In this document: positions 27,290-39,757 of the stretch, in pieces
Numbering within the stretch: the stretch's first letter is position 1
How the letters are laid out: each line of letters starts with the position of its first letter
Source: an uncultured Flavobacteriaceae bacterium
GTDB taxonomy: Bacteria > Bacteroidota > Bacteroidia > Flavobacteriales > Flavobacteriaceae
NCBI GenBank assembly: GCA_947502975.1
Contig: CANNBV010000002.1
Coordinates: forward strand, 124,001 to 188,000
Direction of reading: 5' to 3'
DNA: 64,000 nucleotides
Program-made: the position numbers and the translations under genes
The notes under the pieces: generated by a model
What the model was told of the DNA's origin: nothing
Databases searched by the model: none
The model's input: only the letters and a program-made list of their open reading frames with translations

Positions 27290-27464
27290 ACGTATCCTTT
27301 TTTGTAGATGAATTACCCTTGCTATTTTACTATAAAATCATAACAAAATTAGTGTCTTAATATCGTTGTGAATATGATTTTTGTCATGCATTTATAAGAT
27401 TGCTTGTATTTGTTTTAGGAAGTTTAGTTTTATTACATTTATACTGAATATCAAAACGCATATA

Positions 27465-28517
27465 ATGAGTTTTAAAAATAACAAACTACATTTTTATATT
27501 GGAAGTTATACCGAAATGCTTGCTGAAGATTTCGGAGGTTCTGGCAAAGGCATCTATGTACTAGAACTGAATTTAGATACAGGTGAAATAAAGCTACTTA
27601 GCACATATAAACTCACAAATCCAGCTTATCTTACAGTAAATGCATCACATGTATATGCTATTTCAGAAGTTGAAGAGTATAAACATCCAAAAGTAAGTGC
27701 ATTCAAAATAAAGGATCATGGTGTGTTAGAGTTTGTTAACGAACAACATGTTGAAGGTAGTTTACCATGTCATATTAATATACAACATAAAACGCTTCTT
27801 GTTGCATGTTATGGTTCTGGGAATGTATTGTCTTTTCCAGTAGATAATGAAGGTAAAATTTTAAAACATAATTACAATTTTAAGCACACGGGTAAGAGTA
27901 TAAATATGGAAAGACAGGAAGCACCACATGCACATCAAGTAGTTATCCATCCCGAGAGAGAAGAGGTTTTTGTGCCAGATTTAGGAATAGACAAGATTAA
28001 AGTGTATCAGTTTAATAACCAGGTTTTAACTCCAATGCCAAGATTAGATATAGATATACCAAAAGGGAATGGTCCAAGGCATATGGTATTTCACCGAAAT
28101 GGAAACTTGGCTTATGTCATGAATGAACTTACGGGAAATGTTACTGTACTTAAATTAGAAGGCGATAAATTTCAATATAAAGATTCGTATAAATCATTAC
28201 CACAAACTTTTACAGAAACTCCAAGTGGTGCAGCAATAAGAATTCATCCTAATGGAAAGTATCTCTATGTTGCAAATCGTACCATTGATAGTATTACCAT
28301 TTTTAAAATTCAAGGCGAATCACTAGAGCTTTTAGACTATCAATACACCAATGGCACAACGATAAGGGAATTTAATATTACACCAGATGGTAATTGGTTA
28401 ATTGCGTGTTTACAAGATTCCAACGAGGTCATTAGTTACAGTATTCTCTCATCAGGGTTGCTTCAAGAAAAACAAAGAAACACAACTATTATTTCTCCTG
28501 TTTGTGTGTGTTTTTAA
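27465..28517 (+). CDS. Lactonase-family seven-bladed beta-propeller protein
   Basis: A 350-residue protein of the 6-phosphogluconolactonase/carboxymuconate-cyclase lactonase family: YIGSYTE at the start, then HQVVIHPEREEVFVPDLGIDKI, GPRHMVFHRNGNLAYVMNELTGNV and GAAIRIHPNGKYLYVANRT. No signal peptide is present with the ATG at 27465. The gene faces the fucosidase gene end to end, so a role in opening a sugar lactone from the neighbouring catabolic cluster is possible, but it is on the other strand. The true substrate is unknown. Confidence 0.82.
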   Translation: MSFKNNKLHFYIGSYTEMLAEDFGGSGKGIYVLELNLDTGEIKLLSTYKLTNPAYLTVNASHVYAISEVEEYKHPKVSAFKIKDHGVLEFVNEQHVEGSLPCHINIQHKTLLVACYGSGNVLSFPVDNEGKILKHNYNFKHTGKSINMERQEAPHAHQVVIHPEREEVFVPDLGIDKIKVYQFNNQVLTPMPRLDIDIPKGNGPRHMVFHRNGNLAYVMNELTGNVTVLKLEGDKFQYKDSYKSLPQTFTETPSGAAIRIHPNGKYLYVANRTIDSITIFKIQGESLELLDYQYTNGTTIREFNITPDGNWLIACLQDSNEVISYSILSSGLLQEKQRNTTIISPVCVCF

Positions 28518-28632
28518 TTTGGGCGCTACCCGCAAGGGGTCGGGCTTTCCGCTATATCTTTTTTGTATCGATAGCTTCGAGAATCTCAGCCACCGATACA
28601 AAAAAGGATGCCGCTGCAATCCCTAGCGCGGG
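28518..28632 (+). repeat. Copy C of the dispersed ~100-bp repeat
   Basis: It begins immediately after the lactonase stop with TTTGGGCGCTACCC, continues GGGTCGGGCTTTCCGC, and ends GCAATCCCTAGCGCGGG. The inner module is a 12-bp perfect hairpin, TTTTTTGTATCG against CGATACAAAAAA. It is the best preserved copy of the family in the window. Confidence 0.8.
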
Positions 28633-28682
28633 TGAGCCTGCTAACACCAGTTTAACTTTTAGGTTCAGGTATTTTTGCTCAT

Positions 28683-28718
28683 AAAAAAAGCTTGCCTGTT
28701 CAAAGAACAAGCAAGCTT
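28683..28718 (-). terminator. Rho-independent terminator of the fucosidase operon
   Basis: On the minus strand a 14-bp stem (AAGCTTGCTTGTTC against GAACAGGCAAGCTT, one U-G pair) with a three-base loop is followed by a run of T. It lies 22 bases after the fucosidase stop and ends the long minus-strand cluster. Confidence 0.85.
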
Positions 28719-28739
28719 AACAACATGTTTAGTTGTAGT

Positions 28740-30308
28740 TTAGTTGAAATTTATCTTAAATGAAAATGCATGATCTCCAACTTTTTCTTTTGGTAAATCA
28801 ATATATAAACCATCGTCCTTCATTTCAAAACTTAAGTCACCTTCATGACCTAATAATTGAATGGATTTGATGTCTTTTTTCAAATATGTATTTCCTTTTT
28901 TAAACGAGTGGATTTTTTTGGTGTCACCTTCAGGCCAATCCATAACAATGGCATAAAGTGTTTCACCTTTAGTTGTAAAACGCACATCTTTTGACGTGTT
29001 ATCAGCGTTTTTACGCTCACTAAGGTGTCCTTCAATAACCTCAGTGTCACCTTCTCCATAAATTTCAAAAGGACGTGTACCATAGATCGCTTCCCCATTA
29101 ACTTGTAACCATTGTCCCATTTCTAATAAACGTTCTTTAACAGGCTCTGGAATAGTACCATCAGCTCTTGGTGTGATGTTTAATAAAACTGCCCCGTTTT
29201 TACTCACTACATCAACTAAAAAGTCAACAAGTCTGTTTGTCGATTTATAATTAGGATCATCAATATGGCACCATGCTTTCCAATCAATAGAATCATCTGT
29301 TAACCAAGGAAAATCTTTTTTCTCACTCATTCTGGCGCGTTCTAGATCCAGTACGGCAGAGCCTTTTGCAAAATCATAAAACTTATAAGTAGAAACAACC
29401 TCTTGGTCTTTCTTTGCAGCTTCATTATAATAATATTGTAAAAATTCTTTTCTGTGGGCCTCACTTATAACATCCATTTTATTGTCAAACCATACTAAGT
29501 CTGGATCGTATTTATCAACAATCTCTTTTAATCGGTTTAACCATTCATCGTTAAAAGCTTTGTCTGCAAGAGGATAATATCGTTTAACACCAGCATCAAT
29601 CTCGTGTGGGTTTGGAGGCATTTGGTTATCTCCTTTTTTAAGTTTTGGTCCGTATAGTCCAGCATATTTAGGATCTGATGCATCTGTCGTTTCATCCCAA
29701 GTTGGATACCAACCAAATAACCAGTGGCGATGAAAAGTAGCGATGAACTTCATGTCTCTCTTACGAATTTCTTTAGACAATTCTCCCATTACGTCGCGTT
29801 TTGGTCCCATATCCATAGCATCCCATTCAGTCAAATCACTATCCCACATGGCGAACCCATCAGCGTGCTCTGATACAGGGCCGGCAAATTTAGCACCAGC
29901 TTTTTCGAATAGGTCTGCCCATTCAGCAGCATCAAATTTTTCAGCTTTGAACATCGGAATAAAATCCTTGTATCCAAATTCATTTAAAGGGCCGTAAGTT
30001 TTTACATGGTAATCGTGAATTGCACTTGCTTTACCATCTTTTGCTTCTGGATTGTCTTTGTTAACATACATCCAATGCGCATACCATTCAGTTTCGTGAG
30101 CAGGCACAGAATATGGTCCCCAATGACAATAAATACCAAATTTTGCATCTAAAAACCATTCTGGAGTTTTATGTTGTTTTAATGACTCCCAGTTAGCCTC
30201 GTAAGTCATAACTTCTTTTGATGCAGTATCTTTGTTAGCATCTTCTTTAGCTTTGTTATTACACGATAGTACCACTAGAGCGAGTAACAGAATTGAAAAT
30301 AGTCTCAT
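28740..30308 (-). CDS. GH29 alpha-L-fucosidase, lipoprotein
   Basis: Releases alpha-L-fucose from glycans. It is a 522-residue protein with a lipoprotein signal (Cys16 in VVLSC) and an acidic/lysine-rich spacer. The GH29 barrel is visible from WFLDAKFGIYCHWGPYSVPAHETEWY. The presumed nucleophile Asp275 is in DLVWFDNKMD, and the block NGAVLLNITPRADG is typical of the family. The C-terminal 90 residues form a beta-sandwich. It is the last gene of the minus-strand cluster, 27 bases after the MaoC gene. It suggests that fucose, or a fucose-containing algal glycan, is a substrate of the pathway. Confidence 0.9.
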   Translation of the reverse strand: MRLFSILLLALVVLSCNNKAKEDANKDTASKEVMTYEANWESLKQHKTPEWFLDAKFGIYCHWGPYSVPAHETEWYAHWMYVNKDNPEAKDGKASAIHDYHVKTYGPLNEFGYKDFIPMFKAEKFDAAEWADLFEKAGAKFAGPVSEHADGFAMWDSDLTEWDAMDMGPKRDVMGELSKEIRKRDMKFIATFHRHWLFGWYPTWDETTDASDPKYAGLYGPKLKKGDNQMPPNPHEIDAGVKRYYPLADKAFNDEWLNRLKEIVDKYDPDLVWFDNKMDVISEAHRKEFLQYYYNEAAKKDQEVVSTYKFYDFAKGSAVLDLERARMSEKKDFPWLTDDSIDWKAWCHIDDPNYKSTNRLVDFLVDVVSKNGAVLLNITPRADGTIPEPVKERLLEMGQWLQVNGEAIYGTRPFEIYGEGDTEVIEGHLSERKNADNTSKDVRFTTKGETLYAIVMDWPEGDTKKIHSFKKGNTYLKKDIKSIQLLGHEGDLSFEMKDDGLYIDLPKEKVGDHAFSFKINFN

Positions 30309-30335
30309 AAATAATTCTTATTTAGTTGTATTGTT

Positions 30336-30785
30336 TTATAGGAAAGCCTTCTTTTTTGCTAATAAAATATGATCGCATACTAGCACCAATTCATCATTTT
30401 GGTTAAAAATTTCAACATGTTCGTTTACATGGCCAAGTTCAGGTCGTTTAGATTCTTTTTTTTCTGAAATAGTTACAACAACACGAATAGTATCACCAAT
30501 ATGTACAGGTTTTATAAAACGCAGTCTGTCGTAACCTTTCGAAAAGGCCTCAGGGTTTATTTCAGTAGCTGTCATGCCAATACCAACAGCAAAAGTTAAT
30601 GTGCCGTGAGCTATACGTTGTTTAAAGGGTTGAGTTTTACACCATTCTGCATCCATGTGATGTGGAAAATAATCACCAGTATGACCCGCATGAACTACAA
30701 AATCAGTCTCTGTAATAGTTCTTCCTAAGGTTTCTCTTTTATGACCTAATTCATAATCTTCGTAAAATTGAGATTTAATATGCAT
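30336..30785 (-). CDS. MaoC-like hydratase/dehydratase
   Basis: A 149-residue hot-dog-fold enzyme of the (R)-specific enoyl-CoA hydratase group. The catalytic Asp and His are in [11 protein letters not shown], followed by [13 protein letters not shown]. These enzymes hydrate or dehydrate CoA thioesters, unusual in a sugar-degradation cluster. It lies between the SDR and the fucosidase in a tight operon. With two class III CoA-transferases upstream it implies a CoA-ester intermediate. Mesaconyl-CoA- or crotonyl-CoA-like chemistry is a family-based possibility. Confidence 0.85.
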
Positions 30786-30853
30786 TGTTAAAACTGTTTA
30801 ATCGTGTAATTGTTTATTTATTTAGCTAGTTCATTGAATGAGATTAAAAGCTT

Positions 30854-31624
30854 TTATCTACCCATCCAACCACCGTCTACAAGAACGATTGTACCATTCA
30901 TATATCCAGCAGCTTCAGATGCTAGAAATACAGTAGGTCCTGCAAAATCTGTAGGGTTACCCCATCTTCCTGCTGGGATTCTAGATAAAATAGATTCTGA
31001 TCTTACCGGATCGTTTCTTAGGGCTTCAGTATTATCTGTCGCAATGTATCCAGGTGCTATAGCGTTTACATTTACGCCTTTTCCAGCCCATTCGTTAGCA
31101 AAAGCCATAGTCATTTGTCCGATGGCACCTTTACTAGCGGCGTAACCCGGTACAGTAATTCCTCCTTGGAATGTTAATAAAGATGCTGTGAAAATAATTT
31201 TCCCAGACTCTCTTTTTACCATTTCTTTACCAATCTCTCTGGTTAAGATAAACTGTGCATTTTGATTTACTTCTATGACTTTATCCCACATTTCATCTGG
31301 ATGTTCTGCAGCTGGTGTTCTTAAAATAGTTCCAGCATTATTAACCAAAATATCAATTTGTGTATGATCAGCTTTTACAGCTTCAATAAACGTATATAAT
31401 GATTTTCTATTTGAAAAATCACATTGGTAGGCGCTAAAGGTTTTACCTCTAGAAGTCACTTCTTTTTCAACATCACTTCCGCTTAACTCTAAAGATGCAG
31501 AAACACCAATAATATTTGCTCCAGCCTCTGCTAAACCAATAGCCATGGCTTTTCCTATTCCTCTTTTACAGCCTGTTACTAATGCCGTTTTTCCTTCTAA
31601 ACTAAATGTATTTAAAATACTCAT
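30854..31624 (-). CDS. SDR-family sugar/sugar-acid dehydrogenase (KduD-like)
   Basis: A 256-residue classical short-chain dehydrogenase: cofactor motif TGCKRGIGKAMA, NNAG, catalytic YAASKG, and the late PGYIATDNTEALRND block typical of 2-deoxy-gluconate/3-deoxy-hexulosonate dehydrogenases such as KduD and 2-keto-3-deoxy-fuconate dehydrogenase. In a fucosidase-containing operon, oxidation of a deoxy sugar acid is likely. The exact substrate is not determined by the sequence. Confidence 0.85.
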   Translation of the reverse strand: MSILNTFSLEGKTALVTGCKRGIGKAMAIGLAEAGANIIGVSASLELSGSDVEKEVTSRGKTFSAYQCDFSNRKSLYTFIEAVKADHTQIDILVNNAGTILRTPAAEHPDEMWDKVIEVNQNAQFILTREIGKEMVKRESGKIIFTASLLTFQGGITVPGYAASKGAIGQMTMAFANEWAGKGVNVNAIAPGYIATDNTEALRNDPVRSESILSRIPAGRWGNPTDFAGPTVFLASEAAGYMNGTIVLVDGGWMGR

Positions 31625-31653
31625 TTGTGATATATTTGTTGTAATTAATTAAA

Positions 31654-32670
31654 TTATAGTGTGCAATCCATTAAGACTTTCATGCCATCAGGATTATTAT
31701 CAATATTTTCAAAAACTTGTTGAATATTACTTAACGGTTGTACATCTGTAATCATATCTTCAAATGGCAACTCATTTTTTGTAATTAAATCAATTGATTT
31801 TTCGTAATCTTCTTTTTCATATACTCGGGCTCCAATTAATTTTAATTCCTTCCAAAAGAATTTAAATAAATCTATTGGCTTTTTTTCACCGTGTATAGCA
31901 ACCATTAAAATTCTACCTCTAATACCAGCAATTTCAGTCATAATATCTAATGCAGGTTGTACGCCCGCAACTTCAAAAACAACATCAGCTAAACGCCCTT
32001 CTGTTTGTTCTTTTACGTATTCTACTAAATTATTAGTAATCGGGTTTACAGCATTTAACCCCATAGCTTTAGCTTTGGCTATACGCTTTTCATTTACTTC
32101 AGAAATGATAACGTTTGCACCAGTTTGTTTCGCTACCATAGCAACTAGAAGCCCGATAGGACCGCCACCAAGAACAACTGCAGTTTCGCCAGCTTTTAAA
32201 CCGCTTAATCTTACATCATGCGTGGCTACTGAAAGCGGTTCTATTAATGCCGCTAATTTTAAATCGGTATCTGCCTTTAATTTGTGTAGCGTAAATGCGG
32301 GTACATTCCAGTATTCTTGCATAGCTCCAGGACTGTCAATACCAATGAATTTTAATTCTTCGCAAATATGATTAAATCCTTTGTCTGATGGTTTTACTTT
32401 CCTGTCATCTAAAGGACGTACTACTATTTTATCACCAACAGCGTATCCAGAAACGTCCTCGCCTATAGCATTGATAACACCAGACATTTCATGACCAATA
32501 GTCTCAGGAATGTTTACTCGTTTGTCCATCATTCCATGATAGATATGAACATCTGTACCGCATACACCTACGTACGCTACTTTAATTTGAACTTCTCCCT
32601 TTCCAGGAGCTTCAATCTCTTTTTCTAATACTGAGAAGGTTTTATTGCCTTCGTATTGTGTTGCTTTCAT
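31654..32670 (-). CDS. Zinc-type medium-chain dehydrogenase without structural zinc
   Basis: A 338-residue MDR protein. The catalytic zinc site is present (VGVCGTDVHIYHG and TIGHEMSG), as is the Rossmann motif VLGGGPIGLLVA. The lobe that normally holds four structural-zinc cysteines instead reads with a single Cys (HICEELKF), so the structural zinc appears lost. Relatives oxidise polyols, threonine or aldoses; L-fucose or a derived sugar alcohol is a plausible substrate from context. It is the first gene of the second operon half, with its own promoter upstream. Confidence 0.82.
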   Translation of the reverse strand: MKATQYEGNKTFSVLEKEIEAPGKGEVQIKVAYVGVCGTDVHIYHGMMDKRVNIPETIGHEMSGVINAIGEDVSGYAVGDKIVVRPLDDRKVKPSDKGFNHICEELKFIGIDSPGAMQEYWNVPAFTLHKLKADTDLKLAALIEPLSVATHDVRLSGLKAGETAVVLGGGPIGLLVAMVAKQTGANVIISEVNEKRIAKAKAMGLNAVNPITNNLVEYVKEQTEGRLADVVFEVAGVQPALDIMTEIAGIRGRILMVAIHGEKKPIDLFKFFWKELKLIGARVYEKEDYEKSIDLITKNELPFEDMITDVQPLSNIQQVFENIDNNPDGMKVLMDCTL

Positions 32671-32899: not shown

Positions 32900-33970
32900 T
32901 TAAATATTATAATTTGGAGTTACTCCTCCATCATTATTAGATTCGTATGCCGCTTCAACTATAGCCATAGAATGAACTACATCTTCAACGCTAGTTGGTA
33001 GTTCTTTTGTCGAACCTTCTACATATCTCATTAAAGAGGCCATAGTACCAACAAACGCATCAGGAAACCAAGAGCCTTCCAAATCTACTTCAATCCATTT
33101 TGGCTCTTCTCCTTCTTTTACAATACAATATTGAAATAGGTCTGGCTTTCCGTTCGGGTAATCTAGAAGTAATCCAATTCTAGCTTTAATAGCTCCCTTA
33201 GTTCCTTCCCATTTCACAAAACTCTCTTGGTTTTTTTCTCCAAAATTATGATCGTGGTTGGTGTTGATAATGGCACGCATAGCATCATTATAATCCATAA
33301 TAGTTGTGGTGCGTGTAGACGACATAGGTTTTCCAGGGTTCTTCAACGTTTTTGAATATACTTTTTTTGGATTTCCTAAAAACGAACGAATTAAATCTAT
33401 ATAGTGAATACTGTGTTGCTGAATTTCTAAGCGTGGATGATTAACCACATTTGGAAAATATTCCCAAGGAGTATAGGTTGTTAAACGCACTTCAAAATCA
33501 TATAATTCGCCAATTAAACCTTGGTCTATCAAATATTTTGCAGCCATAACATAAGGCGCAAAACGCATCTGACAATTAATTGCCGCTTTAAATTGTTTTC
33601 TACGGCAAACTTCTAAGATCTCTAGAGTTTGCTCGTAATAATCCCCCATTGGTTTTTGAATAAGCACAGCTGCCTTATCTGGTAATAACTCTAAGGTTGC
33701 TACAAATTGATTTGGCATTAATGTTAAATCATACACTGCGTTTTCAGGCGCATCTGCCACCATTTCTTGCACAGAATCGTATACTTTAGGGATGTTAAAT
33801 GTTTTAGCAACATCTTCTGCACGCTGTTTGGTTCGGTTTGTAATACCCGCTAGAGTAAAACCTACATTTCTATAAGCAGGTAAATGTGCATCTCGTACTA
33901 TTCCTCCAGCTCCAATAATGTAAATTGGTCGGTTTTCTTTTGGTAATTCTGGTTTATAGATTAATTCCAT
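32900..33970 (-). CDS. Gfo/Idh/MocA-family oxidoreductase
   Basis: A 356-residue NAD(P)-dependent sugar oxidoreductase. The N-terminal Rossmann motif is IGAGGIVRDAHLPAY; the catalytic-lysine region reads VLIQKPMGDYYEQ (usual E-K-P), and the C-terminal alpha/beta domain has HSIHYIDLIRSFLGNP. Its stop/start coupling with the upstream gene (33970 overlap) ties it to the binding-protein/CoA-transferase unit. Many relatives oxidise inositols or sugars, or handle sugar acids. Confidence 0.85.
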   Translation of the reverse strand: MELIYKPELPKENRPIYIIGAGGIVRDAHLPAYRNVGFTLAGITNRTKQRAEDVAKTFNIPKVYDSVQEMVADAPENAVYDLTLMPNQFVATLELLPDKAAVLIQKPMGDYYEQTLEILEVCRRKQFKAAINCQMRFAPYVMAAKYLIDQGLIGELYDFEVRLTTYTPWEYFPNVVNHPRLEIQQHSIHYIDLIRSFLGNPKKVYSKTLKNPGKPMSSTRTTTIMDYNDAMRAIINTNHDHNFGEKNQESFVKWEGTKGAIKARIGLLLDYPNGKPDLFQYCIVKEGEEPKWIEVDLEGSWFPDAFVGTMASLMRYVEGSTKELPTSVEDVVHSMAIVEAAYESNNDGGVTPNYNI

Positions 33971-35208
33971 TAGATTGAATTTTCTATTTGGTTTATTTTA
34001 TGTTGTGCATTATCTAAAATAGATTGAATATCTTCAGAAGTATTAATTACTTCTAAAACTAGTGTGTCTATAACATCTGCAATTTCAGACCAATTACTCT
34101 TCCTTGGTAGAGCATTCGTGTTTTTATGGAGCTCTTCCAATTTATGATAATAGGGTACTTCTTTATTAACGTCTTTATCGTGCCAGGTAGATTTTCTACA
34201 ACCAATAGCACCTTCTAGCGTTAATAGTTTGTCATTTTCAGGGTTTACGGCAAATTTTATGAAGTCATATGCCAAATCTTTGTGCTGACTTCCTGAGCCA
34301 ATAACATACATCCAATAGGCATTTAGAGAACAGCCTTCTCCATTTGGTCCTGCAGGAACATTAGCAATATCAACCTTTCCTTTTACTTTTGAAGTTTCTA
34401 AAAACTCGCACATAGAAGCAAAGCCAAACCAATTTACCATCATCGCTAATTCGCCATTTGCAAATGCCATTCCTGATTTTACAGAATCAAAATCTCTAGA
34501 CTCTGGATGAATAGCGTTTTGGTTTTTTAATGCTTTTCTGTAGAATGTCATCCCTTCAACAGCAACATCAGAATTGAGTTTGATGTTTTTATGATTATCG
34601 AATAAATCGCCACCTCTTGTCCATAATTGTAAACAAAAATCAAATACTGTGTTGTGTCCATCAGGATACGCCGCGAAAGTGGTGCCGTATAAATTGTCTT
34701 CAGGTCTATTGAAAAATTCGGCAACCTGCATCAAATCGTTCCAGGTTTTAGGGATTTCTAATGTTCTACCGTATTTTTTTTTAAACTCCTTTTGTTCTAC
34801 ATCTGAAGCGAATAAATCTTTTCTATATATTAAGCATTCTGGGCCATCATGAAATGGTAACCCTACCGTTTTTCCATCAAACTCTTGTTTGTAAAGTAAT
34901 GATCTAGACCATCCATTTGGGAAGTCTTCTGGAGGATTCTGAGAAATATATGGTGTTAAATCTTCTATGGATGCTGAAGAATATGCTTCAGTAATCCAAT
35001 CAGTATTGATTAAAGATACATCCCAAGTGCCATTTTTTAAACCTTCGTCTTTTAAAATAGTATCGTATAATGGATGTAAATCTAAAGGGATGGCTTCTAA
35101 TTCTAAATTACAACCTGTGGTTTTGCAAAAGGATGCCCAAATTTTATCTATAGCACTCTCAAAAGCATCAAATTTTCTAACCGCTATTTTGAATTTACCT
35201 GTTTGCAT
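33970..35208 (-). CDS. Solute-binding-protein-fold protein without signal peptide (SBP1)
   Basis: A 412-residue protein with the fold of family 1/8 carbohydrate-binding proteins of ABC transporters: DGKTVGLPFHDGPECLIYRKDL, IPKTWNDLMQVAEFF, FANGELAMMVNWFGF and AYDFIKFAVNPENDK. It starts MQTGKFKIAVRKF, without a signal peptide. An in-frame TAA, the stop of the preceding CoA-transferase gene, lies two codons before the ATG, so no longer N terminus is possible. It should be cytoplasmic. No ABC permease or ATPase is nearby. Ligand and role are unknown. Confidence 0.85.
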   Translation of the reverse strand: MQTGKFKIAVRKFDAFESAIDKIWASFCKTTGCNLELEAIPLDLHPLYDTILKDEGLKNGTWDVSLINTDWITEAYSSASIEDLTPYISQNPPEDFPNGWSRSLLYKQEFDGKTVGLPFHDGPECLIYRKDLFASDVEQKEFKKKYGRTLEIPKTWNDLMQVAEFFNRPEDNLYGTTFAAYPDGHNTVFDFCLQLWTRGGDLFDNHKNIKLNSDVAVEGMTFYRKALKNQNAIHPESRDFDSVKSGMAFANGELAMMVNWFGFASMCEFLETSKVKGKVDIANVPAGPNGEGCSLNAYWMYVIGSGSQHKDLAYDFIKFAVNPENDKLLTLEGAIGCRKSTWHDKDVNKEVPYYHKLEELHKNTNALPRKSNWSEIADVIDTLVLEVINTSEDIQSILDNAQHKINQIENSI

Positions 35209-35211
35209 TTC

Positions 35212-36354
35212 TTAATTTATCAACTCTTTTACTATGGCTTTTGTGTTTTCACCAAGTTTTGGAGAACCCACAGATGATGTTAAATATTCACCGTCTATTT
35301 TTATTGGACACCGAGTAGTTTTGTATTCAAAGCCATCACTCATTACAACGGTTTGAATCATCTCTAAAACTTTAAATCCTTCTTCTGAAAACAGTGTTTT
35401 CCAGTCCATAACGCTAGCACACCATATATCAGCAGGTTCTAAAATAGAGAGCCATTTTTCAGTAGTACCTGTGCTTAAATGATCGGCTAAAATCTTTTTT
35501 ATTTCATCTCTTTTGGTAAACCATGATGATATTTCTGTGTAAGCTTTTAAAGGCTCACAGCCTAATAATTCACCTAAGACAGGAATAGATCCCATGGCTA
35601 AAACCATGTAGCCATTTTGTGTTTTGTAGATGCCATATGGTGCACCCAAATAAGCGTGCGCACTATTGTTTTTTGGTCTTACAGTTGGTTGTCCGCCATC
35701 GTGATAAAACGTCGTTATAGATTCAAACTGGAAATCTAAAATAGATTCCAACATATTTACCGATACCTTACTGCCTTCTCCAGTTTTTGAGCGTTTTACC
35801 AAAGCTGCTAAAATACCTTGAACCAAATGCGCTCCAGATAAAATGTCAACTAAAGCTAAGCCTATTGGAGTAGGACCGTTATCCTGAGTGCCACTCAACC
35901 AAGTGACACCAGATAAGGATTGTGCTAATAAATCTTGCCCTGGTTTTGGGCGCCAACGCCCTTCTTCACCATAACCAGAAATACTTCCATAAATTATATT
36001 CGGATTAACCTTTTTAATAGTGTCGTAATCAAACCCTAAACGTTCAATAACACCAGGTCTAAAATTATGCACTAAAACATCGGCTTTAGCTATGAGTTTT
36101 AAGACGCGCTCTTTATCAACCGCATCTTTTAAGTTAGCCTGAAAGCTTTCTTTATTTCTATTGATAGCTCTAAAAATGGAAGATTCTCCATTTAGGTTAA
36201 CGTTTGAAACATAAAGTTGCCTACAAATATCGCCAGTTTCTGGTCGTTCAACTTTAATCACTCTTGCGCCTAAATCTGCCATTCTAAGTGTAGCCGACGG
36301 CGCAGATAAAAACTGACTTAAATCTATAATTAATATATCTTCTAAAGGTCTCAT
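35212..36354 (-). CDS. Class III (CaiB/BaiF) CoA-transferase, second paralogue
   Basis: A 380-residue CoA-transferase. The N terminus is [35 protein letters not shown], with the Arg/Glu block. The catalytic Asp is Asp170 in [10 protein letters not shown], followed by [13 protein letters not shown]. These enzymes move CoA between carboxylic acids. It is about 45-50% identical by eye to the neighbouring paralogue, recalling heterodimers such as succinyl-CoA:malate CoA-transferase SmtAB and benzylsuccinate CoA-transferase BbsEF. The gap to its neighbours is 3-6 bases. Confidence 0.9.
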
Positions 36355-36360
36355 AGATGA

Positions 36361-37506
36361 TTATAGATTGAATTCTTTAATAATTGCTTTATTATGTTGC
36401 CCTACTCTTGGAGCAGGTTTACTGGAAAATAAGCGTTCATCGTTCATGCGAATTGGACACCTTAAAGTATGTACTTCTTCACCTGAAAGTAACGATAGTT
36501 TTTGATCTATTTGTAACACTTGATACGCTTCGTGATCTAGTAATCTTTTGTAATCAAACACATTAGAGCACCAAATACCTTCTGGTCTTAAAATGTGTAA
36601 CCATTCGTTTGTGGTTTTGGTGATAATTTTATCTCTCACGATATCCATGATTTCATCTCGCTTTGTAAACCAAGTATCTGTATCGGTATAGTTTAGAAGT
36701 TTAGGAGCGTCAATAACTTCGCCTAATTTTAATACAGAACCCATTGCAATGGAGATATAGCTATCTTTAGTTTGATAAATACCATATGGAGCTCCTAAAT
36801 ACGGATTTGCAGCACCTTTTTTAGCACGTTTTATAGGTTTGTTGCCGTCATTTAAATATGTAGTGATGACTTCAAATTGAAGATCTAGAGTTGACTCTAA
36901 TAAGCTAACTTCAACTAAAGCACCTTTATTGGTTTTGGCTCTACGTACCAAACTTGCTAAAATACCTTGTGCTAAGTGCGTACCAGTGATAATATCTGAA
37001 ACTGCAGCACCAATTGGTGTGGGATCATCATCATGATTCCCCGTTAAATTTACAAAACCGGACATCGCTTGTACTAGCAAATCTTGTCCAGGTTTTTTTG
37101 CCCATGGTCCGATGGTACCATAGCCTGTAACCGTGGCGTAAATCAATTTTGAATTTATAGCCTGAGCTGTTTTATAATCTAAACCAATTTTTTCCATAAC
37201 GCCAGGGCGGAAATTATGGGTCATTACATCTGCCTGTGCAATTAGTTTTTTTACGCGTTCTAAATCTTCAGGATCTTTTAAGTTGGCAGCATAAGAGTCT
37301 TTATTTCTGTTGACTGTATGAAACACCAAACTGCTACCATCTAAAAATAAATTTTTTAAAGCGATTTGTCTACCAGCTTCACCTGTGTTAGGTCTTTCAA
37401 TTTTAATGACACGTGCACCTAAATCAGCTAATTTTAAACCAGCTGAAGGACCTGCCATAAATTGGGCAAACTCTAAAACTAAAATACCTTCTAATGGTCT
37501 TTTCAT
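36361..37506 (-). CDS. Class III (CaiB/BaiF) CoA-transferase, first paralogue
   Basis: A 381-residue paralogue of the following gene, with the same architecture: [46 protein letters not shown], and the catalytic Asp171 in [11 protein letters not shown]. Both paralogues keep the active-site Asp, so both may be active. It is placed 6 bases after SBP2. The presence of two adjacent copies is the strongest hint for a heteromeric enzyme acting on a sugar-derived acid. Confidence 0.9.
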
Positions 37507-37512
37507 TACAAA

Positions 37513-38664
37513 TTAAATATCTAAAGATGTTATATAAAGTTTGTTGAGTTCTTCTAATAAAGCAGCTTCGTCTCCACCATTCATCATATAAGCTCTAATT
37601 GGTGCTCCAGCACGATCTTGAAAATACATATGTCCGTTATATCTAGGGCGTAAAAAAGCTCTATCAAGTCCTGGAAGTGTGTTTTTGAAGAAGTTGGCTG
37701 TTACGCTATTGGTGTGCTCGTCTGTCCATGCCTTTCTATGTCCTGGTTGCCCACCATTATCAAAAAATACTGTTTTTTGGCAAGCTTCTGAAGCAGTATA
37801 TTCTACATATTTCATTACTGTTTCAATTTCTTTAGTTTGTGCTGAAACTGCTAAACCTGTTCCGCCTAAAGTAGAAATGGCGCCCACACCGTTAATTTCT
37901 ACCATATCATGAAAGTGTAGTAACTTACGAGCATATCCTTTTCTGCTATAATTTGTATAACCATAAGCCCATGGACAATAGGCATACTTATCCGTTAAGG
38001 TCATCGCCTCGTATATTTGAATGGGGTTCCAATCGAAAATTTGAGGATCCATTTCAATAGCTAATTCTCTAAGCATTTTTAAAGCTGAAATACCTATGTC
38101 TTTGCTTACAACATGATCTTTTGAAGTACATACTTCTTCACCTAAATTGCAGCACATCATATAAAAATTCATCAAAGTATCCTGTGGAATTCCAGGCATG
38201 ATCACTAAACCTTGTTTAGCCAAAGTCAATAAGTCATCATAGGTTTTTGGTAATTCCAAACCTTTATCAACAAAAATATCAGGTCTACTTGCAGCAACAG
38301 GTGTAGCTGCGTCAACTGCTAACGCCCATTGGTGTCCGTTTGAAGCATAACTTTCGTGAGAGCGTCCCACGGAGTTATCTTCTAAATCGTTCAAAAATGC
38401 TTTGGGCAAATATTCATCTAGAGGTAAAATTACATTGTTTTTACCTGCAAAACCTGCCCAAGGATGATCTATAATTAATAAATCGTAGCGTTTTGCTAAT
38501 TCATTTATAGGCTCATCAGCAAAAGCTTGAAGCGAACGTTTTTCCCAAGTGATATCTACATTTGGGTGTAATTCTGTAAAGCGTTGTGCTGTTGCAACCA
38601 CAGATGTAAATCCCCTACTGTGGTTCCATGTAATACCTTTTAATTGTATTCTTTTTGTACTCAT
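37513..38664 (-). CDS. Solute-binding-protein-fold protein without signal peptide (SBP2)
   Basis: A 383-residue binding-protein-fold protein: KGITWNHSRGFTSVVATAQRF at the start, LPKTYDDLLTLAKQG, YCPWAYGYTNYSRKGYA, and GGTGLAVSAQTKEIETVMKYV near the end. The start MSTKRIQLKG has no hydrophobic segment. An in-frame stop at 38680-38682, 18 bases upstream, excludes a missed signal peptide. The paralogy with SBP1 is distant. It sits between the permease and the CoA-transferases, 22 bases after the permease stop. Cytoplasmic ligand binding is the inference. Confidence 0.83.
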   Translation of the reverse strand: MSTKRIQLKGITWNHSRGFTSVVATAQRFTELHPNVDITWEKRSLQAFADEPINELAKRYDLLIIDHPWAGFAGKNNVILPLDEYLPKAFLNDLEDNSVGRSHESYASNGHQWALAVDAATPVAASRPDIFVDKGLELPKTYDDLLTLAKQGLVIMPGIPQDTLMNFYMMCCNLGEEVCTSKDHVVSKDIGISALKMLRELAIEMDPQIFDWNPIQIYEAMTLTDKYAYCPWAYGYTNYSRKGYARKLLHFHDMVEINGVGAISTLGGTGLAVSAQTKEIETVMKYVEYTASEACQKTVFFDNGGQPGHRKAWTDEHTNSVTANFFKNTLPGLDRAFLRPRYNGHMYFQDRAGAPIRAYMMNGGDEAALLEELNKLYITSLDI

Positions 38665-38686
38665 TATTTTTTTAATACTTTACTTT

Positions 38687-39757
38687 TTAATGACCTCCAA
38701 TATTACCTTCTCCTAACATTGTGCCGTAGGCCATAACTATAAATGATGCTATTAATACTGCTAAAGCTAATATTAAAACTATGTTGGTTTTTTTAGTTAC
38801 TTGCTTCCATTCTTTCATAATAATGCCAACGATATAGCTGAAGAAAATTAGCATAGACATGTGTATTACCCAACTGGCAAATCCAAATTCGCCCATATTT
38901 GTATGACCTATACCGTAGAAGAAAAACTGGCCATACCATAAAGCACCTGTTAACACAGACATTAATACATTCATAGTATAAGCGCTAGCTCCAATTCCTT
39001 TAACGTCCACTAATTGTTTTAAAGTCCCTTTTTTAAGACCAACAATTGTAAACCATATTAGGTTGGTTACAAATGCGCCGCCCGTTGATAAAATCAATTT
39101 TGCATTACCTTGAAATTGACCTGCACCGTTAGCATCTGCAATTCCGTCGAGAGATTGACCTACTTCTAAAGAAATACCAAAAACTGCTGATAAAACACCT
39201 GCAATTAATGTTAGAGTTAAACCTTTTTTCATGTTGAAGGTTAGTGGTTCAGATCCTTCGATATTTTGGGCTTTTAAGTCTTTTTCTTTTTTATAGCCTG
39301 CAACACCACAAATTACGATTCCTATCAGCGCGAAGAACATTCCTAAAAATACAATGTGTCCTCCAGGAGCATTAAATTTTTCAGCTAACTCTCCATGCAT
39401 TATTAAAGGAACTATTGTTCCTAAAATTGCCGAAATACCTATAGAAATTGTATAAGTTAAGGAGTAACCAATATGTTTTATTGCCATTCCAAAACACATG
39501 CCCCCAAAACCATAAATAGCGCCTAATAGTGTAGCATTTATAAGTACAGATGTGTCAGCTTTAGCAAATACATCCATTAAATTAGGAACAGTTAAGAACC
39601 CTATAATAAAAGGGAAAATAAACCATGCAAAAGAAGCTTGTAAAAGCCAATACGTATCCCAAGACCATTTTTTTACTTTTTGTAATGGGAGATAACATGT
39701 TGAGGCGGCTACTCCTCCTACTGCATGAATAAGAGTGCCAAGAATTGGATTTGCCAT
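38687..39757 (-). CDS. RhaT-like sugar permease (drug/metabolite transporter superfamily)
   Basis: A 356-residue membrane protein with about ten transmembrane helices, resembling the L-rhamnose/proton symporter RhaT: PILGTLIHAVGGVAASTCYLPLQKVKKWSWDTYW at the start, in separate blocks, then GFGGMCFGMAIKHIGYSLTY and the C-terminal WVIHMSMLIFFSYIVG. It is the first gene of the minus-strand cluster and probably brings the sugar into the cell. As a secondary carrier it does not need a binding protein, which makes the downstream binding-protein genes puzzling. Specificity for rhamnose, fucose or another deoxy sugar is not resolved. Confidence 0.82.
   Translation of the reverse strand: MANPILGTLIHAVGGVAASTCYLPLQKVKKWSWDTYWLLQASFAWFIFPFIIGFLTVPNLMDVFAKADTSVLINATLLGAIYGFGGMCFGMAIKHIGYSLTYTISIGISAILGTIVPLIMHGELAEKFNAPGGHIVFLGMFFALIGIVICGVAGYKKEKDLKAQNIEGSEPLTFNMKKGLTLTLIAGVLSAVFGISLEVGQSLDGIADANGAGQFQGNAKLILSTGGAFVTNLIWFTIVGLKKGTLKQLVDVKGIGASAYTMNVLMSVLTGALWYGQFFFYGIGHTNMGEFGFASWVIHMSMLIFFSYIVGIIMKEWKQVTKKTNIVLILALAVLIASFIVMAYGTMLGEGNIGGH

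Follow-up and report, generated by a model that had tools for sequence, protein, structure and literature searches.

Leaderless solute-binding proteins encoded with class III CoA-transferases in a conserved gene cluster point to an undescribed route of sugar breakdown

The binding proteins of ATP-binding cassette (ABC) importers are seen as transport components that work outside the cytoplasm, and the non-phosphorylated pathways of L-fucose and L-rhamnose, which pass through an aldonate and a 2-keto-3-deoxy acid to lactate or lactaldehyde, are not known to need a coenzyme A (CoA)-transferase, CoA-ester hydratase or solute-binding protein (SBP). Among the CoA-transferases, BbsE is paired with BbsF, and we know of no described class III enzyme that is associated with proteins of the SBP fold. 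The nearest published idea found is the deoxyribonyl-CoA pathway proposed for Klebsiella michiganensis, in which a sugar acid is activated as a CoA thioester, oxidised and cleaved (PMC6365646). That route uses a CoA-synthetase, a beta-hydroxyacyl-CoA dehydrogenase and a thiolase, and no SBP was found in the portions of the paper reached by a text search (PMC6365646). A description of an SBP acting with a CoA-transferase was likewise not found in the open-licence literature searched, which gives partial coverage. Here we analyse a window of 64,000 nucleotides (nt) from an uncultured Flavobacteriaceae bacterium (assembly GCA_947502975.1, contig CANNBV010000002.1, positions 124,001 to 188,000), in which two SBP-fold proteins without export leaders, SBP1 and SBP2, are encoded around two class III CoA-transferases, CaiB1 and CaiB2. 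We give even chances to the reading that this cluster is a sugar-acid catabolic module working via CoA thioesters, in which each SBP is the cytoplasmic substrate-binding partner of a CoA-transferase. The core genes, with their best profile and structure matches, are:

38687..39757, minus strand: RhaT-like sugar:proton symporter gene (Pfam PF06379, 2.8e-56; NCBIfam RhaT models under their cut-offs)
37513..38664, minus strand: SBP2, leaderless CUT1-type SBP fold, probably cytoplasmic (PF01547, 2.5e-11; AlphaFold 2 (AF2) predicted local distance difference test, pLDDT, 95.1; Foldseek 5iai, 1.9e-20)
36361..37506, minus strand: CaiB1, class III CoA-transferase (PF02515, 3e-95; PDB 9br6, succinate-hydroxymethylglutarate CoA-transferase, 1.9e-56; presumed catalytic Asp171 kept)
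35212..36354, minus strand: CaiB2, class III CoA-transferase paralogue (PF02515, 1.8e-91; PDB 9br6, 1e-48; presumed catalytic Asp kept)
33970..35208, minus strand: SBP1, second leaderless CUT1-type SBP fold (PF01547, 6.4e-29; AF2 pLDDT 93.2; Foldseek MalE3 6dtq, 2.0e-29)
32900..33970, minus strand: Gfo/Idh/MocA oxidoreductase (PF01408, 2.1e-12; PF02894, 1.2e-8), which adjoins SBP1 in relatives

The gaps between RhaT, SBP2, CaiB1, CaiB2 and SBP1 are 22, 6, 6 and 3 nt, and SBP1 overlaps the Gfo/Idh gene by 1 nt, so that the five-gene arrangement described in the first-pass annotation matches the coordinates of the open reading frames (ORFs). According to Pfam, AF2 and Foldseek, both SBPs belong to PF01547 and have the two-lobed CUT1 fold. 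They share this family and fold with the CUT1 SBPs of ABC importers, such as MalE3 (6dtq/6dtr), Arad_9887 (5iai) and SmoF, at the Foldseek E-values listed above, but differ from them in lacking a leader and a clustered permease or ATPase gene and in sharing an operon with CoA-ester enzymes. CaiB1 and CaiB2 have PF02515 and the presumed catalytic Asp in common with the succinate-hydroxymethylglutarate CoA-transferase SUGCT (9br6), formyl-CoA transferase, YfdE and BbsEF (9fn0), and they are paired paralogues like the benzylsuccinate CoA-transferase BbsEF. Profile searches of the whole 4.5 Mb source genome matched PF01547 to SBP1 and SBP2 only and PF02515 to CaiB1 and CaiB2 only.

The absence of an export signal from both SBPs, claimed by the first-pass annotation, was borne out. 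In-frame TAA codons start 18 nt (SBP2) and 6 nt (SBP1) 5′ of the ATG, which excludes a leader for the two window proteins, and the best 11-residue Kyte-Doolittle mean is 0.17 for SBP2 and 0.45 for SBP1 versus 2.68 and 3.25 for the controls, two secreted proteins encoded in the window. A scan with SBP2, using one genome per species, gave at least 562 relatives, and a first set of loci was made of the best 80 of these 562, which are close relatives (59-89% identical); a second set comprises 48 SBP2 and 20 SBP1 loci, some of them from the same genomes. When a hydrophobic segment was sought from the upstream in-frame stop to residue 25, none was present in 74 of the 80 SBP2 relatives and all 52 SBP1 relatives of the first set, and 45/48 SBP2 and 20/20 SBP1 sequences (>300 bits) of the second set fell under the same threshold. 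Such a segment does precede residue 25 in six SBP2 sequences of the first set; four of them (L082, L111, L125 and L127) have an in-frame ATG upstream of the conserved start, so that the hydrophobicity test alone does not exclude a leader there, while L123 and L129 have no such ATG. Three SBP2 sequences of the second set (L158, L165 and L174, the last a fragment) also exceed the threshold. As a positive control, ordinary ABC-type SBPs that are weak SBP1-profile matches in the same loci were above the threshold in 6/6 cases. Transport SBPs with a missed start were rejected, given the in-frame stops in the window and the leaderless relatives.

As the first-pass annotation had also said, the SBPs have no ABC partner here: no cognate permease or ATPase was found in the cluster among the ORFs and Pfam matches of the window, and the three PF00528 permease matches of the source genome all lie on other contigs. 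Those three genes, together with a fold that is that of CUT1 transport SBPs, are what could be cited for ordinary import SBPs whose export needs no leader of a recognisable kind or whose permease is encoded elsewhere. We regard this explanation as highly improbable, since the SBP2 and SBP1 families are leaderless, none of the PF00528 genes is near the cluster, and five proteobacterial loci described below already have a full sugar ABC importer, its SBP included. The cytoplasmic location of the SBPs is well supported, as is the conserved gene module.

Conservation of the module was evident in both sets. A CaiB gene follows SBP2 on the same strand within 400 nt in 80/80 loci (the best 80 of 562), and two CaiB genes are present in 79; SBP1 occurs in 52 of these loci, Gfo/Idh in 51 and MaoC in 48. 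Within the fetched stretches of the second set, CaiB was found in 40/48 SBP2 loci and 20/20 SBP1 loci, and SBP1 adjoins CaiB in all ten SBP1-bearing genomes among 296 sampled. Because the gene set is conserved in relatives across both sets, a chance neighbourhood was rejected. The first-pass annotation had proposed this search for adjacency in other genomes and had said that its idea would fall if homologues had leaders and ABC permeases as partners or if the gene set lacked conservation; the search was run and did not overturn it. A Persicobacter plasmid has the same gene order as the window, lactonase and fucosidase included. In whole-genome samples SBP2 was found in 12/149 genomes of the family, 19/395 of the phylum, 6/289 of the class of an alphaproteobacterium and 2/274 of the class of a gammaproteobacterium, with thresholds that differ between samples. 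The RhaT-like permease lies outside the conserved core, being present in 10/52 SBP1-bearing loci (fetched flanks). The distance between SBP2 and CaiB1 is 20 nt or less, or the genes overlap, in 64/78 loci, and that between CaiB2 and SBP1 is 20 nt or less in 51/52, which suggests a pairing of SBP2 with CaiB1 and of CaiB2 with SBP1.

The CoA-ester enzymes of the module are conserved as well. CaiB1 and CaiB2 each cover the full PF02515 profile (1-366 of 366), and neither reached a curated NCBIfam cut-off. The Asp that we take to be catalytic is kept in 161/161 aligned CaiB sequences, and on this account both paralogues look active. The Asp/His dyad of the MaoC protein (Asp38 and His43), presumably its catalytic motif, is present in 49/49 MaoC sequences. 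A second cluster type, found in 25 of the 80 loci (e.g. L024, L025, L026, L055, L058, L068 and L111), consists of SBP2-CaiB-CaiB and a crotonase, without SBP1, MaoC and Gfo/Idh. SBP1 and crotonase never share a locus in the first set, and three loci have neither. MaoC (48/80) and crotonase (25/80) were found together in 0/80 loci; the two have unrelated folds but act alike on CoA esters, and that one replaces the other speaks for a thioester as intermediate. An aldehyde dehydrogenase accompanies the crotonase type in 24/80 loci, and in one example its top named match is AldA-like PRK10090, under the cut-off; models of lactaldehyde and glyceraldehyde dehydrogenases are among those that follow.

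In the window the run continues past the Gfo/Idh gene (27381-32670) with genes that the first-pass description had left out:

31654..32670, minus strand: Zn-dependent dehydrogenase, Tdh/IolM-like (PF00107, PF08240; top NCBIfam match under cut-off)
30854..31624, minus strand: short-chain dehydrogenase/reductase (SDR), KduD-like (PF00106, 8.8e-53; KduD TIGR01832, 319 bits vs a cut-off of 339)
30336..30785, minus strand: MaoC-type enoyl-CoA hydratase with the Asp/His dyad (PF01575, 1.3e-22)
28740..30308, minus strand: alpha-L-fucosidase, predicted secreted, probable substrate supply (PF01120, 2.2e-100; hydrophobic leader)
27381..28517, plus strand: 7-bladed beta-propeller lactonase, divergent (PF10282, 3.7e-94)

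The cluster is flanked by pta/ackA on one side and, on the other, by a GH16 protein gene and genes that we presume, from family features, to belong to aromatic amino-acid metabolism.

From these genes we infer the order of the pathway, the ligand and a physical partnership between SBPs and CaiB proteins as follows. The RhaT-like symporter would import the sugar, and the Gfo/Idh/MocA enzyme and the lactonase would convert it to an aldonic acid, with a 6-deoxyhexonate (L-fuconate or L-rhamnonate, for example) as the probable product. A class III CoA-transferase would then shift CoA from a donor onto this acid, MaoC, or crotonase in the other lineage, would add or remove water on the thioester, and the SDR and the Zn-dependent dehydrogenase would oxidise it ahead of cleavage. 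On this reading SBP2 and SBP1 are binding proteins of the CUT1 type that have shed the leader and remain in the cytoplasm, SBP2 partnering CaiB1 and SBP1 partnering CaiB2, each presenting the polyhydroxy acid and possibly preventing lactone formation by the thioester. Lactonisation is to be expected of free aldonyl-CoA, and a clamp on the open chain would account for the presence of a binding protein beside a transferase. In its most specific form, the proposal is of a new kind of enzyme system, with the SBPs as clamp subunits of class III CoA-transferases: by holding sugar acids in linear form they would allow aldonyl-CoA thioesters to form and pass to MaoC or crotonase, in a CoA-dependent catabolism of sugar acids spread over Bacteroidota, Proteobacteria, Acidobacteriota and haloarchaea; we offer it tentatively, as possible but somewhat doubtful. 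The first-pass idea of binding folds that work inside the cell, tied to CoA transfer, is therefore supported in part: the leaderless families, the conserved CaiB, the recurring MaoC or crotonase and neighbouring ABC importers with their own SBP speak for it, while the extent it gave to the cluster and the place of the permease in the core did not stand.

Distant relatives extend these observations. From spread-out matches, ten annotated proteobacterial plasmid loci were chosen, with identities of 31-40%; L142 had no annotation, and L019 and L020 are near relatives. CaiB overlaps SBP2 by 4 nt in 7/10 of these loci (L019, L020, L049, L137, L138, L140 and L141), in either gene order, and in the others it lies 2 nt away (L143), with a crotonase gene between (L136), or a few kb off (L139). 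Rhizobial megaplasmids carry a two-gene CaiB-SBP2 unit. In five of the ten (L049, L137, L138, L141 and L143) the SBP2 or SBP1 relative has a complete ABC importer for sugars as neighbour, and since this importer comes with another SBP, the SBP2 relative is not simply a transport SBP. By the Croceibacterium cluster (L049:22388-25173), a beta-L-arabinofuranosidase-domain gene overlaps a gene of the RuBisCO large-subunit family. In the haloarchaeon Halostagnicola larsenii, SBP1 (37%) occurs with CaiB, an AMP-ligase that adjoins it, MaoC, Gfo/Idh and a fucosidase, and the acid ligase may replace one CoA-transferase at this locus (L050). The haloarchaeal stretch L050:5430-17000 holds an AMP-binding ligase, GH88, a fucosidase and a rhamnose mutarotase. 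At L031:6110-14862 and L032:5967-13627, SBP2 relatives occur with crotonase, a UxuA-like dehydratase, a lactonase, an SDR, a major facilitator superfamily sugar transporter and a RraA-like gene, possibly a third pathway type; in L032 CaiB is about 19 kb from SBP2.

Residue conservation bears on what the SBPs do. Over 21 relatives with identity down to 27%, 25 of 383 SBP2 positions are invariant; they include Asp, Arg, Tyr, Trp and Gln residues, among them Arg17, Asp66, Asp118 and Arg339. In the periplasmic-binding-protein fold the ligand loops and cleft are expected just after strands, and 15 of the 25 come no more than four residues after the end of a strand, versus 99/383 positions overall (P = 2e-4), cleft proximity being judged from secondary structure only. 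Since invariant residues concentrate there, one ligand or reaction seems common to the SBP2 family. The same pattern would suit SBPs that are enzymes themselves, a CUT1 fold turned catalyst (e.g. a sugar-acid lactonase, isomerase or dehydratase) in the same pathway and not subunits of CaiB. Enzymes with periplasmic-binding-protein folds are known, namely MqnA/MqnD and cyclohexadienyl dehydratase, and the invariance reaches the CaiB-less loci L033, L171 and L173, whose leaderless SBP2-like genes lie in sugar-acid operons with mandelate-racemase-type enzymes (dehydratases), SDRs or a RraA-like aldolase, a subfamily that keeps the enzyme reading alive. We nevertheless consider catalysis by the SBPs unlikely, as no catalytic motif was recognised in them, both models match sugar-binding proteins best, and the comparison of polar or aromatic residues in invariant columns (23/46 and 24/55 for SBP2 versus 16/60 for a family of true ABC SBPs; P 0.016 and 0.078, Fisher test), with a small control of six sequences, is weak and no more than suggestive.

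Both AF2 models match CUT1 sugar-binding proteins best in Foldseek, closed liganded forms slightly ahead; for SBP1 the template-modelling score is 0.86 to liganded MalE3 (6dtq) and 0.77 to apo MalE3 (6dtr). This resemblance to closed, sugar-bound SBPs would also fit cytoplasmic sensors or buffers, which bind an imported sugar or acid, keep its loss or toxic effect in check and tune the pathway, making no contact with CaiB. A locus that could be read in this way is L163:977-9045 (genome G428), where an SBP2 relative (53%) lies beside a run of sugar kinase, isomerase-like and aldolase-dehydrogenase genes, with SBP1 and two CaiB genes elsewhere on that contig, at a distance of about 60 kb. The translational coupling to CaiB and the rhizobial two-gene unit fit a dedicated partner better, and an IclR-type regulator is already present in 36/80 loci; we judge a sensor or buffer role quite improbable.

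Several observations weigh against a dedicated partnership of SBP and CoA-transferase in a sugar-acid pathway. Eight of the 48 SBP2 loci of the second set have no CaiB in the fetched stretch. Two of them are L032 and L163, with CaiB farther off as given above; the other six (L033 and L170-L174; 205-294 bits) represent a distant SBP2 branch or a fragment, and the genome of L173 gave no match to PF02515 anywhere; L174 is a contig-end fragment, and the other copy in its genome (L130) has CaiB. SBP2-like proteins can therefore work without CaiB, and the link with sugar-acid catabolism is broader than that with CaiB. Close spacing is not exclusive to SBP-CaiB pairs, as distances of 20 nt or less also separate SBP1 from Gfo/Idh in 38/51 loci and CaiB1 from CaiB2 in 45/73 (49/77 including four distances that are script artefacts). 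The crotonase-type loci keep two CaiB genes yet have no SBP1, the distant locus L136 carries both MaoC and crotonase, and the substrate is guessed from neighbouring genes.

These neighbours hint at 6-deoxyhexoses. A fucosidase gene is near the cluster in the window and at L017, L049, L050, L053, L054 and L153, a GH78 rhamnosidase is encoded at L084, and RhaT, rhamnose mutarotase and fuconolactonase-like amidohydrolases occur near relatives; the crotonase type was near GH2, sulfatase and agarase-domain genes in the examples examined. Lactonase, dehydrogenases, a mandelate-racemase dehydratase and rhamnose mutarotase near relatives resemble the non-phosphorylated L-fucose and L-rhamnose pathways, whereas the CoA-transferase, the CoA-ester hydratase and the SBP set the present clusters apart from those pathways.

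Taken as a whole, the clusters, which occur in many bacterial genomes and in one archaeal genome or more, point to an undescribed route of sugar breakdown. A branch of the SBP family that lacks leaders, is conserved and goes with CoA-transferases would put the fold inside the cell, in CoA chemistry, and hundreds of genes annotated as “extracellular solute-binding protein” (at least 562 SBP2 relatives) would be misnamed. It would also provide a CoA-dependent route, open to experiment, for the deoxysugars of plant and algal glycans.

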